Shown: positions 47,241 through 64,000 of the stretch, one piece after another | How positions within the stretch are numbered: position 1 is the first letter of the stretch | Layout: the number at the start of each line of letters is the position of its first letter | DNA from: Streptomyces gobiensis | GTDB lineage: Bacteria; Actinomycetota; Actinomycetes; Streptomycetales; Streptomycetaceae | Assembly (NCBI RefSeq): GCF_021216675.1 | Contig: NZ_CP086120.1 | Span: 4,958,501 to 5,022,500 of the forward strand | Length of the DNA stretch: 64,000 bases | Direction: 5' to 3' | The notes under the pieces: generated by a model | Database searches by the model: none | Told to the model about the DNA's origin: nothing | The model's input: only the letters and a program-made list of their open reading frames with translations | Program-made: the position numbers and the translations under genes

Positions 47241-47360
47241 GGATGACCTTCGTAGCGGAGGGTGCCGCGCAGATACGGGGGGCCACGGCTTTACCGAATG
47301 GTATCGGTTTCTGGCGGCAACTGGGCAAGCCAGAACCGGAGCCAGGGCCCAGAGACCCAG

Positions 47361-57699: not shown

Positions 57700-57805
57700 C
57701 ACGGTCTGTGACTCATATGCGCTCTTGCCCCGAATGCGGCGGCGGCATCTACTGGGCGCTGCGGCTACAACTGGCTGCAACTGGCGGGTGAGCAACGGAG
57801 GTGGA

Positions 57806-58852
57806 GTGAGCGTGCGGCCCCTGACCTTTGTCGTCGGCACCGGGCGCAGCGGCTCGACCGCGCTGTCGAGCATCGTGAACCTGCACCCCGATGTGCTCAG
57901 CCTCAATGAGCTCCTCGCTTCGGTCGGCGCCGACCCCCGCCGTGACCCGCTGCCCGACAAGCCGCTGTCCGGGGTGGAGTTCTGGAGTCTGCTCGCCGAC
58001 CCGAACCGGGTCTTCGACCGGATGATCCGCAGCGGTGCCCCGTTGCCGGAGTTTCTCTACAACCGGTCCCCTGGCCGCTTCTCGGCCGAGACCACCGGCA
58101 TCCCCGCGCTCTGCCTGATGGTCCTGCCGCATCTCACCGACGACCCGGACACACTGCTCGATGAGCTCGCTCCCCGGGTCACCGCCTGGCCCAGCCGTCC
58201 GGTCGCCGCGCACTACGCGGCGCTGTTCGATCTGCTCTGCGCCCGCTTCGGCCGCCGGGCGGTCATCGAGCGCTCGGGCTACTCCCTGGGCTGGGTGCCC
58301 CGGCTGCGCGAGACGTTCCCGGAGGCGCGCTTTGTCCATCTGTTCAGGAACGGGCCGGACTGCGCGCTGTCCATGAGCCGTCACTCCGGCTACCGGATGA
58401 TTACGCAACTGCGGGAGATCGAGGAGTCGGCCGGGGTCAGCTCGCTGGCCGACCTCACCGAGGAACACATCCGGTCTCTGCCCCCCGAGCTGGCCGGACT
58501 GCTGGCCGACCGGTTCGATCCCGCCCTGGTCCTGGAACGGCCGCTGCCGGTTACCCGGTTCGGCTCATTGTGGTCGCGCATCATCACCGATGGGGTGGCC
58601 ATGCTGAACAAGATCCCGGCCCGGCAGCGTACGACCCTGGCGTACGAGGACCTGCTGGCCGCACCGGAGCGGGAGCTGGCGCGGCTGGCCGAGTTCGCCG
58701 GTGTGGAGCCGCTGCGGGACTGGCTGGACACCGGGCAGGCCATGCTCGACAGCGGACGGCGCGGCGCCGCCCTGCGGCTGCCGCCGGAAGAGCTCTCGGC
58801 GCTCCGCGAGAGCTGCGCCCCGGGTATGGCGGCCTTGCGCGGAGCGCGCTGA
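57806..58852 (+). CDS. Sulfotransferase family protein
   Basis: 348-aa PAPS-dependent sulfotransferase-like protein. The 5'-phosphosulfate loop is VVGTGRSGSTALSSIV at about residues 9-24; the 3'-phosphate region is FVHLFRNGPDCALSMSRHSG near 190. The substrate is unknown; the actinomycete family includes sulfotransferases for lipids and trehalose. GTG 57806 has GGAGGTGGA just upstream; GTG 57812 is also possible. Two genes away from a SulP anion transporter, which may or may not be a coincidence. Confidence 0.82.
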   Translation: MSVRPLTFVVGTGRSGSTALSSIVNLHPDVLSLNELLASVGADPRRDPLPDKPLSGVEFWSLLADPNRVFDRMIRSGAPLPEFLYNRSPGRFSAETTGIPALCLMVLPHLTDDPDTLLDELAPRVTAWPSRPVAAHYAALFDLLCARFGRRAVIERSGYSLGWVPRLRETFPEARFVHLFRNGPDCALSMSRHSGYRMITQLREIEESAGVSSLADLTEEHIRSLPPELAGLLADRFDPALVLERPLPVTRFGSLWSRIITDGVAMLNKIPARQRTTLAYEDLLAAPERELARLAEFAGVEPLRDWLDTGQAMLDSGRRGAALRLPPEELSALRESCAPGMAALRGAR

Positions 58853-58974: not shown

Positions 58975-59415
58975 ATGGTGCGGCAGCTGATGCGGATCGG
59001 CGAGGTGTCCGAGCGTACGGGCTTGTCCCTGCGCACCATCCGGCACTACGAGGAGGTCGGCATCATCGGCCCCACCTCCCGCAGCGAGGGGGGCTTCCGG
59101 CTCTATACGGAGGCGGAGGTGCGGCGGCTCGCTGTGGTGCGCCGGATGCGGCCGCTCGGTTTCTGCCTGGAGGACGTACGGTCGTTGTTGGGAGTGCTGG
59201 AGCGGCTGCCCTCTACGGACCGGGCGGCGTCCGGGACTGATATCCAAGCGCACGATGAACTGGTGGCGACATTGCGGAAATTCTGGCAGGAAACGGACGC
59301 GAGGTGCGAGGGCCTGCGCCAGGAGCTGGCGAAGGCGGAGGACTTCGCCAGCTCGCTGCATGGTCATCTGGCACGCCTCGCGGAGGCGTCGGCGGCTCCG
59401 GGCGGGAAGCGATGA
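58975..59415 (+). CDS. MerR-family regulator (operon with prfC)
   Basis: 146-aa MerR protein: winged helix MRIGEVSERTGLSLRTIRHY at residues 6-25, YEEVGIIGPTSRSEGGFRLY, then a dimerisation coiled coil and a short C-terminal region with C111 (DARCE). It is a clear paralogue of the MerR protein encoded at 61850-62248, with the same cysteine in the same DARCE context. A perfect dyad covers its promoter, implying autoregulation. It overlaps the prfC start by 4 bp. Confidence 0.92.
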   Translation: MVRQLMRIGEVSERTGLSLRTIRHYEEVGIIGPTSRSEGGFRLYTEAEVRRLAVVRRMRPLGFCLEDVRSLLGVLERLPSTDRAASGTDIQAHDELVATLRKFWQETDARCEGLRQELAKAEDFASSLHGHLARLAEASAAPGGKR

Positions 59416-61849: not shown

Positions 61850-62248
61850 TCAGCCTTGTCTGTCCAGCTGGCGCCGCAGTGTCGCGGCGAAGTCCTCGGC
61901 GGCAATGAGCTGGGCGCGCAGCTTCTCACAGCGGGCGTCCGCCACCTTGCGGTAGGCGTCCAGTCGCTCGCGCAGCCGTTCCCGGTCCGCCGCCGGAGGC
62001 GGCTCGGTCGCGGAGAGCCGGTCGGTGATCTCCAGCAGGTCCCGCGTCTCCTCCAGTGAGAAGTCCAGCGGCTTCATCCGCCGGATCACCATCAGTCGCT
62101 CCACATCGGACTCCGTGTAGAGCCGGAAGCCGCCCTTGCTGCGGGCGGAGGGGGTAACGAGCCCCACTTCCTCGTAGTGCCGGATCGTGCGCAGCGACAA
62201 ACCCGTTCGCTCGGCCACCTCGCCGATCTGCATCTGCCGCTGAGTCAT
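61850..62248 (-). CDS. MerR-family regulator (divergent from SulP transporter)
   Basis: 132-aa MerR protein: MQIGEVAERTGLSLRTIRHY at residues 6-25, then GGFRLYTESDVERLMVIRRM and a coiled coil ending RQLDRQG, with a single cysteine C107 (DARCE). Its DNA-binding half is nearly the same as that of the first MerR. It is divergent from the SulP gene, whose promoter region carries a related dyad, which makes it (or its paralogue) the likely regulator. ATG 62248 with no strong ribosome site. Confidence 0.92.
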   Translation of the reverse strand: MTQRQMQIGEVAERTGLSLRTIRHYEEVGLVTPSARSKGGFRLYTESDVERLMVIRRMKPLDFSLEETRDLLEITDRLSATEPPPAADRERLRERLDAYRKVADARCEKLRAQLIAAEDFAATLRRQLDRQG

Positions 62249-62315: not shown

Positions 62316-62356
62316 ATGAATCACAGGGTCGGAAGCATTGTTCACCTGTGATTCAT
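62316..62356. promoter_or_regulatory. Long inverted repeat upstream of the SulP promoter
   Basis: ATGAATCACAGG (62316-62327) and CCTGTGATTCAT (62345-62356), perfect 12-bp arms with a 17-base spacer; outer GTGAG/CTCAC arms (62311-62315, 62359-62363) extend it with a two-base bulge. AT-richer than the surroundings. It may be an operator for a second regulator, or a site used by the divergent MerR gene. Confidence 0.65.
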
Positions 62357-62369
62357 AGCTCACCGGTCG

Positions 62370-62397
62370 CATCCATCCCTCACGTCAGGGTAGAGTC
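62370..62397 (+). promoter_or_regulatory. MerR-type operator and -10 box of the SulP gene
   Basis: Matches 20 of 28 positions of the dyad at 58928-58955, including CCCTCACG and AGGGTAGAGT. Left arm is degenerate. TAGAGT at 62391-62396 is the proposed -10 box, giving a transcript start near 62404. Confidence 0.7.
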
Positions 62398-62405
62398 TGT
62401 TTCAC

Positions 62406-62603
62406 GGGCGGAACACCGCCCAGCCGCAACGAAGGCCCGACGGGGCCCGGCGGCACCCGCAGACCTCTCGGGCAATGATGCCCGACCGGTAGCCCACGGC
62501 GGCTACCGACTCCCGGTCCCGCACTGTCCTGGACGACGGCCGCGATGTGACCGGACTCCCGTCCCGGAGTCGCGCACGATGCGCGCGCAGCCGCTCTGCG
62601 CGC
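62406..62603 (+). ncRNA. Multi-hairpin 5' leader of the SulP transporter mRNA
   Basis: Consecutive perfect stems: 62406-62421 (6 bp, AACA loop), 62434-62447 (5 bp, GACG loop), 62468-62485 (6 bp, AATGAT loop), 62487-62508 (8 bp, loop CACGGC), 62554-62571 (6 bp) and 62583-62603 (8 bp, CCGCT loop); the last stem ends 18 bases before the ATG. A tiny frame ATGATGCCCGACCGGTAG (62475-62492) lies in the third and fourth stems. I know no matching RNA family with confidence. Confidence 0.55.
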
Positions 62604-62621
62604 CCGAACAGAAACGGATGC

Positions 62622-64000
62622 ATGTCCGCTCTAGCAACAGCCTCCCGGCTGCGTATGTCCCGCCCGGACTTTCTGTCGTCCCCGAAGGTGTTCCGCACCG
62701 AGGTACTGGCCGGTCTCGTGGTCGCCCTCGCGCTGATTCCCGAGGCGATCTCGTTCTCGATCATCGCCGGGGTCGACCCCAGCGTCGGCCTGTTCGCCTC
62801 CTTCACCATGGCCGTGGTGATCTCGGTCATCGGTGGCCGCAAGGCAATGATCTCCGCCGCGACCGGGGCGATCGCGCTGGTCATCGCCCCGCTCAACCAT
62901 CAGTACGGGCTGGGCTATCTCATCGGCGCCGTCATCCTCGGCGGCCTGATGCAGGTCGCGCTGGGCGCGGTGGGTGTGGCCAAGCTGATGCGCTTTGTGC
63001 CGCGTTCGGTGATGGTGGGCTTCGTCAACGCCCTGGCCATCCTGATCTTCCTGGCCCAGGTGCCGGAGATGACCCATGTGCCATGGCCGGTCTACCCGCT
63101 GGTTGTCGGCGGACTGGCGCTGATGGTCCTCTTCCCGAAGATCACCAAGACGGTCCCCGCGCCGCTGGTCTCCATCGTCATCCTGACCGTGATCACCATC
63201 GCGGCCGGCATCGCCGTGCCGACCGTCGGCGACAAGGGCGAGCTGCCCTCCGCGCTGCCGGTGCCCGGCCTGCCCGACATCCCCTTCACCCTGGACGCGC
63301 TGGCCACCATCGCCCCCTACGCTTTCGCATTCGCGCTGGTGGGTCTGATGGAGTCGCTGATGACCGCCAAGCTCGTCGATGACATCACCGACGAGCACTC
63401 CAACAAGACCCGGGAGTCCATCGGTCAGGGCATCGCCAATGTCATCACCGGCTTCTTCGGCGGCATGGGCGGCTGCGCGATGATCGGCCAGACCATGATC
63501 AACGTGAAGACCGCGGGCGCCCGCACGAGGCTGTCCACCTTCCTGGCCGGTGTCTTCCTGATGGTCCTGGTGGTCGTCTTCGGGCCCGTCGTCTCCAACA
63601 TCCCGATGGCGGCGCTGGTCGCCGTGATGATCCTGGTCTCCTTCGCCACCTTCGACTGGCACTCGGTCGCCCCCAGGACGCTGCAGCGTATGCCGGTCAG
63701 TGAGACCGTGGTGATGGTCGTGACGGTGATCGCGGTCGTGGCCACCCACAATCTCGCCATCGGCGTGATCGTCGGTGTTATCACCGCCATGGTGGCCTTC
63801 GCCCGACGGGTGGCCCACCTGGCCCAGGTCTCCGGGGTCGTTGACCCCGACGGCGGGCAGGTCGTCTACTCGGTCACCGGCGAGCTCTTCTTCGCCTCGT
63901 CCAATGACCTCGTCTACCAGTTCGACTACAAGAACGACCCGGACGATGTGGTGATCGACCTGTCCAGCGCCCACATCTGGGACGCCTCCTCGGTGGCCGC
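62622..64000 (+). CDS. SulP-family anion transporter (3' end outside window)
   Basis: At least 459 codons of a sulfate/bicarbonate-type SulP permease in the cytoplasmic membrane. EVLAGLVVALALIPEAISFSIIAGVDPSVGLFAS at the N-terminus is the sulfate transporter family signature, followed by about ten further hydrophobic helices; the C-terminal STAS domain has begun (VVYSVTGELFFASSNDLV) when the window ends. Ion specificity (sulfate, bicarbonate, dicarboxylate) cannot be told. ATG 62622 is the start with GAAACGGA upstream; another ATG at 62618 is out of frame and overlaps. Probably MerR-controlled with a long structured leader. Confidence 0.93.
   Translation, partial: MSALATASRLRMSRPDFLSSPKVFRTEVLAGLVVALALIPEAISFSIIAGVDPSVGLFASFTMAVVISVIGGRKAMISAATGAIALVIAPLNHQYGLGYLIGAVILGGLMQVALGAVGVAKLMRFVPRSVMVGFVNALAILIFLAQVPEMTHVPWPVYPLVVGGLALMVLFPKITKTVPAPLVSIVILTVITIAAGIAVPTVGDKGELPSALPVPGLPDIPFTLDALATIAPYAFAFALVGLMESLMTAKLVDDITDEHSNKTRESIGQGIANVITGFFGGMGGCAMIGQTMINVKTAGARTRLSTFLAGVFLMVLVVVFGPVVSNIPMAALVAVMILVSFATFDWHSVAPRTLQRMPVSETVVMVVTVIAVVATHNLAIGVIVGVITAMVAFARRVAHLAQVSGVVDPDGGQVVYSVTGELFFASSNDLVYQFDYKNDPDDVVIDLSSAHIWDASSVA

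Follow-up and report, generated by a model that had tools for sequence, protein, structure and literature searches.

A pairing-conserved leader RNA that probably controls a SulP-family transporter gene in Streptomyces

The locus described here lies in a 64-kb stretch of DNA, hereafter the window, which is part of the 5.69-Mb genome of Streptomyces gobiensis. At one end of the window, the gene sulP encodes a transporter of the SulP/SLC26 family, and a gene for a MerR-family regulator is divergent from it; the same arrangement, with merR divergent and no more than 700 bases away, was found in 74 of the 82 contexts examined. The closest solved relative of the transporter is 5DA0 (SLC26Dg, E 9e-151), which we take to be a fumarate symporter. 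SulP scores under the NCBIfam thresholds for sulfate permease (TIGR00815), DauA and BicA, so sulfate should not be assumed to be its substrate. Another MerR-family gene in the window (58975-59415) is 52% identical to the sulP-linked MerR and adjoins an ORF (57725-58852) that is sulfotransferase-like judging by sequence. The features of the sulP leader locus are as follows.

61850-62248, reverse strand: gene for a MerR-family regulator (PF13411, 4e-19), divergent from sulP
62316-62327 and 62345-62356: perfect inverted repeat of 12 bp, ATGAATCACAGG/CCTGTGATTCAT, whose arms are 17 nt apart, upstream of the sulP promoter
62376-62389, forward strand: putative MerR-type operator palindrome CCCTCACGTCAGGG, running into TAGAGT
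62391-62396, forward strand: -10-like TAGAGT, kept in homologous leaders
62406-62411 with 62416-62421, forward strand: hairpin H1, GGGCGG-AACA-CCGCCC, 6 bp, in the variable 5' domain; variable or absent in relatives
62423-62454 (inner stem 62434-62438 with 62443-62447), forward strand: hairpin H2, in the variable 5' domain; variable or absent in relatives
62468-62474 with 62479-62485, forward strand: hairpin H3, TCGGGC-AAUGAU-GCCCGA, 7 bp; the most conserved element
62475-62492, forward strand: frame MMPDR-stop in the H3 loop, judged to be a non-functional uORF
62487-62494 with 62501-62508, forward strand: hairpin H4, 8 bp; strongest covariation
62513-62518 with 62549-62554, forward strand: hairpin H5, 6 bp, with one base common to H6; pairing kept
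62554-62559 with 62566-62571, forward strand: hairpin H6, 6 bp; weakly supported
62583-62590 with 62596-62603, forward strand: hairpin H7, 8 bp; pairing kept
62604-62621, forward strand: conserved initiation tail CCGAACAGAAACGGATGC, without GGAGG
62622-64000, forward strand: sulP (499 aa; PF00916, 3e-47), whose end lies 121 bases past the window

A consensus scan found no sigma-70 promoter at sulP. From the sequence, we infer that the transcript starts near 62403, from the TAGAGT that follows the MerR-type palindrome, and that the palindrome CCCTCACGTCAGGG is the operator of MerR. The motif CCTNACGTNAGG was found in 51 of the 63 leaders with a recognised -10, which suggests that initiation is already under control and that the leader would add control after initiation. 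Further upstream, a repeat resembling ATGAATCACAGG/CCTGTGATTCAT is present in 42 of the 63 type A leaders (those at loci with a close relative of the window's MerR) that have a recognised -10; it may be an operator, either for a second regulator or for merR.

The interval between 62406 and 62603 is filled with short stems, as the initial annotation had claimed; at least six of them have 5-8 bp, and seven are counted here against its six. Its two accompanying details also hold, since the stem that ends 18 bases 5' of the ATG (62622) is H7 and the five-codon frame inside the leader is MMPDR-stop. The hairpins follow one another in a linear array that has no junction core, and no terminator was found in the leader. 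Folding of the leader gives an MFE of -111.5, compared with -95.3 +/- 4.6 for shuffled sequences (z -3.53), and 1 of 200 shuffles was as low. A background for the window was obtained from 285 stretches of 220 nt (one random strand each, 20 shuffles), among which an equal or lower z was found in 3 and an equal or lower raw MFE in 45. The folding of the leader, whose stem density had been set well above that of other leaders in the window, is hence unusual but not unique. More extreme z values than that of the sulP leader occur in the 220-nt stretches at 47301 (reverse strand, -5.1), 58741 (reverse strand, -4.0) and 13861 (forward strand, -3.6).

A DNA search of 295 genomes of the genus gave matches in 189, and most of the matches listed cover the coding part only. 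From fetched loci, 22 leaders were aligned, and a covariance model (R1) that spans H3 to the ATG with 40 pairs was built from 18 of them. A pattern scan of genome contigs yielded 67 stretches, 52 from Streptomyces, some of which were identical to loci already in the set. R1 was run against 92 loci and matched 87 places at E<=1; after dropping duplicates, chance matches and loci without the leader or sulP, 70 distinct leaders remained. In 69 of these 70, the match ends at an ATG from which SulP homology runs in frame, that is, the leader holds a constant position upstream of one gene; in the remaining one (L123), the sequence stops 7 bases past the ATG. The leader was not found at any gene other than sulP in the genomes scanned. 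The window's own genome has a single copy, the next-best R1 matches having E values of 4.6 and 7.1, and an R1 scan of 41 genomes of the genus under strict filters found the leader in 4, once each, with three strong matches and one at E 0.02. The H3 pattern was present in 28 of 392 genomes, and the reversed control was present in none among the matches listed. A stretch of about 5 kb in Streptomyces sp. MNU76 contains the leader and sulP twice (L076, 1451-1614 and 6105-6267), and a divergent merR lies within 700 bases at one copy only.

The relatives with a name that share this leader belong to Streptomyces. The pattern scan also gave 15 stretches from outside the genus: among the 11 run first, 8 matched R1 at E 0.011-0.91 and 3 did not match at E<=1; among the other 4, 3 matched at E 0.025-0.21 and 1 gave no match. 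The 15 stretches were judged to be chance matches, and a spread beyond Streptomyces was rejected. Among 147 genomes from the order, 56 carry a relative of MerR at E<=1e-20, within one of five genera, and the R1 leader was found at E<=1e-5 in 9 of 12 type A loci. Within the genus, several natural losses are apparent: L018 lacks H4-H5, L028 lacks H5, L011 lacks the leader altogether, and H1 and H2 vary from clade to clade and are missing in part. L041 and L043 retain H3 beside a merR that is intact in the former and partial in the latter; sulP is absent from the neighbouring 700 bases in both, and these two copies are likely leader remnants.

The conservation of pairing was evaluated on 65 leaders against a tree-aware null, in which the change counts of each column of a structure-free MAFFT alignment were kept and placed randomly on the tree in 400 simulations. 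With a structure hand-drawn from the same sequences, which favours the pairing percentages, H4 is paired at 94% compared with 76% in the null, the outer stem of H5 at 91% compared with 67%, and H7 at 89% compared with 68%, and 0 of 400 simulations were as high in any of the three. Double-changed pair types number 9 in H4 (3.0 in the null, 0 of 400 simulations) and 14 in H7 (8.8 in the null, p 0.02), and p is 0.115 for those of the outer H5 stem. For the inner stem of H5, the p values are 0.01 for pairing and 0.078 for double-changed types, and for H6 they are 0.05 and 0.85, respectively. Covariation above phylogeny is thus present in H4 and H7, and H5 exceeds the null in pairing percentage only. 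H3 showed no covariation in this test of the 65 leaders because it hardly varies. A scan of 13,530 column pairs that ignored the structure ranked two H4 pairs first, with E values of 1.9 and 2.5, and is therefore not significant on its own. On the model-fitted alignment, which leans toward its own structure, 89.7% of cells are paired, the double-changed count is 174 compared with 52 in shuffles, and both sides have changed in 32 of 40 pairs, and 0 of 500 shuffles reach either value; slid structures are 33-44% paired. Double changes on the fitted alignment affect 7 of 7 pairs in H4 and 9 of 11 in H7, and the main part of H6 is 65% paired.

An absence of covariation in homologous leaders had been set beforehand as a refuting outcome; compensatory changes are present instead, most clearly in H4 and H7. 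Based on these comparisons, we regard the leader fold as real and as firmest for these two hairpins. Across the 65 leaders, the mean identity is 0.989 in the H3 stem, 0.936 in the H3 loop and 0.943 in the tail, and it is 0.845 in H4, 0.754 in the H7 stem and 0.609 in H6. H3 is thus conserved in its very letters, and in the rest of the leader it is the fold that is kept; we therefore favour a trans-acting factor that recognises H3.

The region around the start codon has its own pattern. The GAAAC of the tail is mostly unpaired, with a predicted mean pairing of 0.28, and the tail CCGAACAGAAACGGATGC is retained in L011, whose leader is gone; the tail is thus most simply a ribosome-binding site. 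We presume that its AGAAA could pair with the 3' end of the 16S rRNA. The AUG of sulP is predicted to be paired at 0.60 on average; its pairing with the H5-H7 region amounts to 0.40, exceeds 0.8 in 25 of 65 leaders and involves mainly the 3' strand of H7. Pairing of the AUG with this strand is above 0.5 in 26 of 65 leaders and anticorrelated with H7 itself (-0.79). When the H7 strand was shuffled, the mean z of the H7-AUG pairing was -0.58, with p<=0.05 in 10 and p>0.5 in 20 of the 65 leaders, and among the 65 predictions the pairing is absent in the window's own leader and its clade. Since the pairing is weak against shuffles and absent in this clade, opening and closing of the start by H7 is a candidate in a subgroup only. 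A switch pairing between the 5' strand of H4 and the start tail, hinted at by L030 (GGUCGCC/GGUCGC), is not supported, the predicted average being 0.008. An N-terminal extension of SulP through the leader, from the in-frame GTG at 62547, was rejected, because the indels between leaders are not multiples of three and because the ATG is conserved together with the tail.

The AUGAUG in the loop of H3 raises another reading, namely that the leader acts through a short peptide. AUGAUG is kept in 61 of 65 leaders, an SD-like AAGG precedes it in 9, and sister leaders do carry a uORF (see below). On the other hand, 4 of 65 leaders lack AUGAUG, and the ORF that begins there, where a stop is reached, ranges from 5 to more than 200 codons in all three frames relative to sulP. 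A direct check on all 65 leaders found no SD-like sequence in 52, and the bases downstream track pairing rather than codons. A conserved uORF was rejected on account of this varying length and frame and of the rarity of AAGG; a conserved short ORF with a ribosome-binding site, as expected of a leader-peptide attenuator, is absent from type A leaders. We consider control by a uORF in H3 to be hardly credible. H3 or another palindrome might also serve as an operator within the transcribed region and be read as double-stranded DNA. Its inverted repeat shows no stem covariation, and further operator-like repeats lie at the locus, which would fit this idea; the asymmetry of the conserved loop NAUGAU, an A-U pair in the H3-like stem of the sister leader L031 (GGAGC/GCCUC) and the covariation of H4 and H7 as RNA argue against it, and we regard it as improbable.

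The sister leaders belong to Streptomyces loci that we call type B, whose MerR (63-69% in the 19 examined) and sulP are both more distant. Their operators are of the same kind and their leaders mostly of similar length, and the R1 leader was found in 0 of 17 loci with a distant MerR. An H3-like hairpin is present in 9 of 19 type B leaders under a strict pattern. A short ORF led by an SD-like sequence, typically VREPMTPIAAACPP-stop or close to it, was found in 15 of 19 with a pattern that demands Cys (L029, L032, L146, L148-L156, L158, L160 and L162), and an SD-based scan without this demand found the same ORF in 13 of 19. The ORF ends in Cys-Pro-Pro-stop in 13 of the 15 leaders, in Cys-Pro-stop in one and in Cys-Ser-Pro-stop in one. 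A conserved short ORF with a ribosome-binding site is thus a feature of type B leaders only. This ORF possibly encodes a cysteine-sensing leader peptide, and its fixed Cys codon points to sulfur or cysteine status as the signal, by way of a sister gene; that sulfur status would also be the signal for the type A leader is a guess by analogy.

Taken together, these observations suggest that a pairing-conserved leader RNA probably controls sulP. The mechanism we favour is as follows. Transcription of sulP would start at the MerR-type promoter and, presumably, continue through the leader of about 220 nt, which would fold into the linear array of hairpins. The array would then control the output of sulP at a step later than transcription initiation, most likely when translation begins on a start that is poor in SD sequence. 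The near-invariant stem and loop of H3 would be the probable recognition site for a trans-acting factor, and in H4, H5 and H7 the fold would be what is retained, not the sequence. For a subgroup outside the window's clade, the predictions place the 3' strand of H7 on the AUG region instead, and H7 may open and close the start there. In our judgement, this reading of the type A leader as a structured, cis-acting 5' UTR that acts after initiation through a factor bound to H3 is about evenly poised between right and wrong.

Its two main rivals are a riboswitch and an insulating leader. A riboswitch for a small molecule or ion (sulfate, bicarbonate, a sulfur metabolite or a dicarboxylate) would gate sulP, perhaps by means of H7 against masking of the AUG. 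The long structured leader on a transporter gene, the unpaired bases that are conserved in the loop of H3, in the GUACGA link and in the tail, and the placement of the H7 3' strand on the AUG in place of H7 in 26 of 65 leaders would all suit such a device. The linear hairpins have no junction core, the search for a terminator was empty, no Rfam class was matched, and the H7-AUG pairing is missing in the window's clade and barely exceeds what composition gives, all of which weigh against it. The confinement to one genus and one gene in what was scanned points the same way, and the natural loss of H4-H5 in L018 and of H5 in L028 argues against a tightly knit aptamer. We keep the part of the initial annotation that proposed a structured, cis-acting RNA, since pairing is conserved and the RNA sits at sulP, and treat its sensing of an ion or metabolite as a conjecture; a riboswitch is rather unlikely in our view. 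We rate as similarly unlikely a constitutive leader whose hairpins stabilise or insulate, protecting the mRNA or shaping the start without any sensing. It would account for hairpins that are gained and lost as modules, for H4 and H7 keeping their fold as their sequence drifts and for the mostly unpaired GAAAC, but it leaves the near-invariance of H3 and its loop unexplained.

A wider and speculative proposal, which we hold to be doubtful, is that the leaders form a new class of RNA in Streptomyces, through which an anion transporter under MerR control would be informed of sulfur status. The two sister lineages would have found different solutions to one task. In type A, the hairpin array would be read at H3 by a factor or a metabolite, and in part of the group H7 would open and close the AUG; in type B, an H3-like hairpin would be combined with a ribosome-stalling peptide that ends mostly in Cys-Pro-Pro-stop. 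The leader is of interest as a large RNA that is linked to a single transporter gene and absent from Rfam. It also offers a natural experiment: the sister genes, under an operator of like kind, have a leader peptide instead, and hairpins or even the complete leader have disappeared from some species. If the leader is regulatory, it would provide a tractable case of leader RNA control arising, being rebuilt and being lost within one genus.

The leader corresponds to no family known to us. The comparison with Rfam, one of the checks that had been proposed at the outset, gave 0 matches at the gathering threshold in the window (Rfam 15), and a search of six leader loci at E<=5 gave 8 matches, none of them inside the leader. 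A description of a Streptomyces sulP leader was not found in the literature searched, which covered few subscription journals, and passages in PMC8079986, PMC8269248 and PMC2864571 do not mention a sulP leader RNA. Within Rfam and this literature, the sulP leader is apparently an undescribed family of structured leader RNA, whose function we infer and which we do not file as a riboswitch. It resembles the translational and transcriptional riboswitches among the cis-regulatory families of Rfam in that a transporter gene is preceded by a conserved, structured 5' leader whose helices covary, with a possible H7/AUG alternative in a subgroup. It differs from them in having no Rfam match, no junction core and no terminator, in being found at one gene in the scanned genomes, and in the natural absence of some of its hairpins. 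Leader hairpins that are read by proteins, such as those of ribosomal-protein genes, are similar in that a near-invariant hairpin lies near the start of one gene and the other helices are kept by pairing; however, sulP encodes a transporter and not an RNA-binding protein, and a protein that binds H3 is hypothetical. Compared with the leader peptides of cysteine attenuation in mycobacteria, the type A leader of the window has no such ORF, and the type B peptide contains a single Cys, in most cases with Pro-Pro-stop after it, and not several Cys in a row; the likeness is that a short SD-led ORF in the type B sulP leader has its Cys codon close to the stop.
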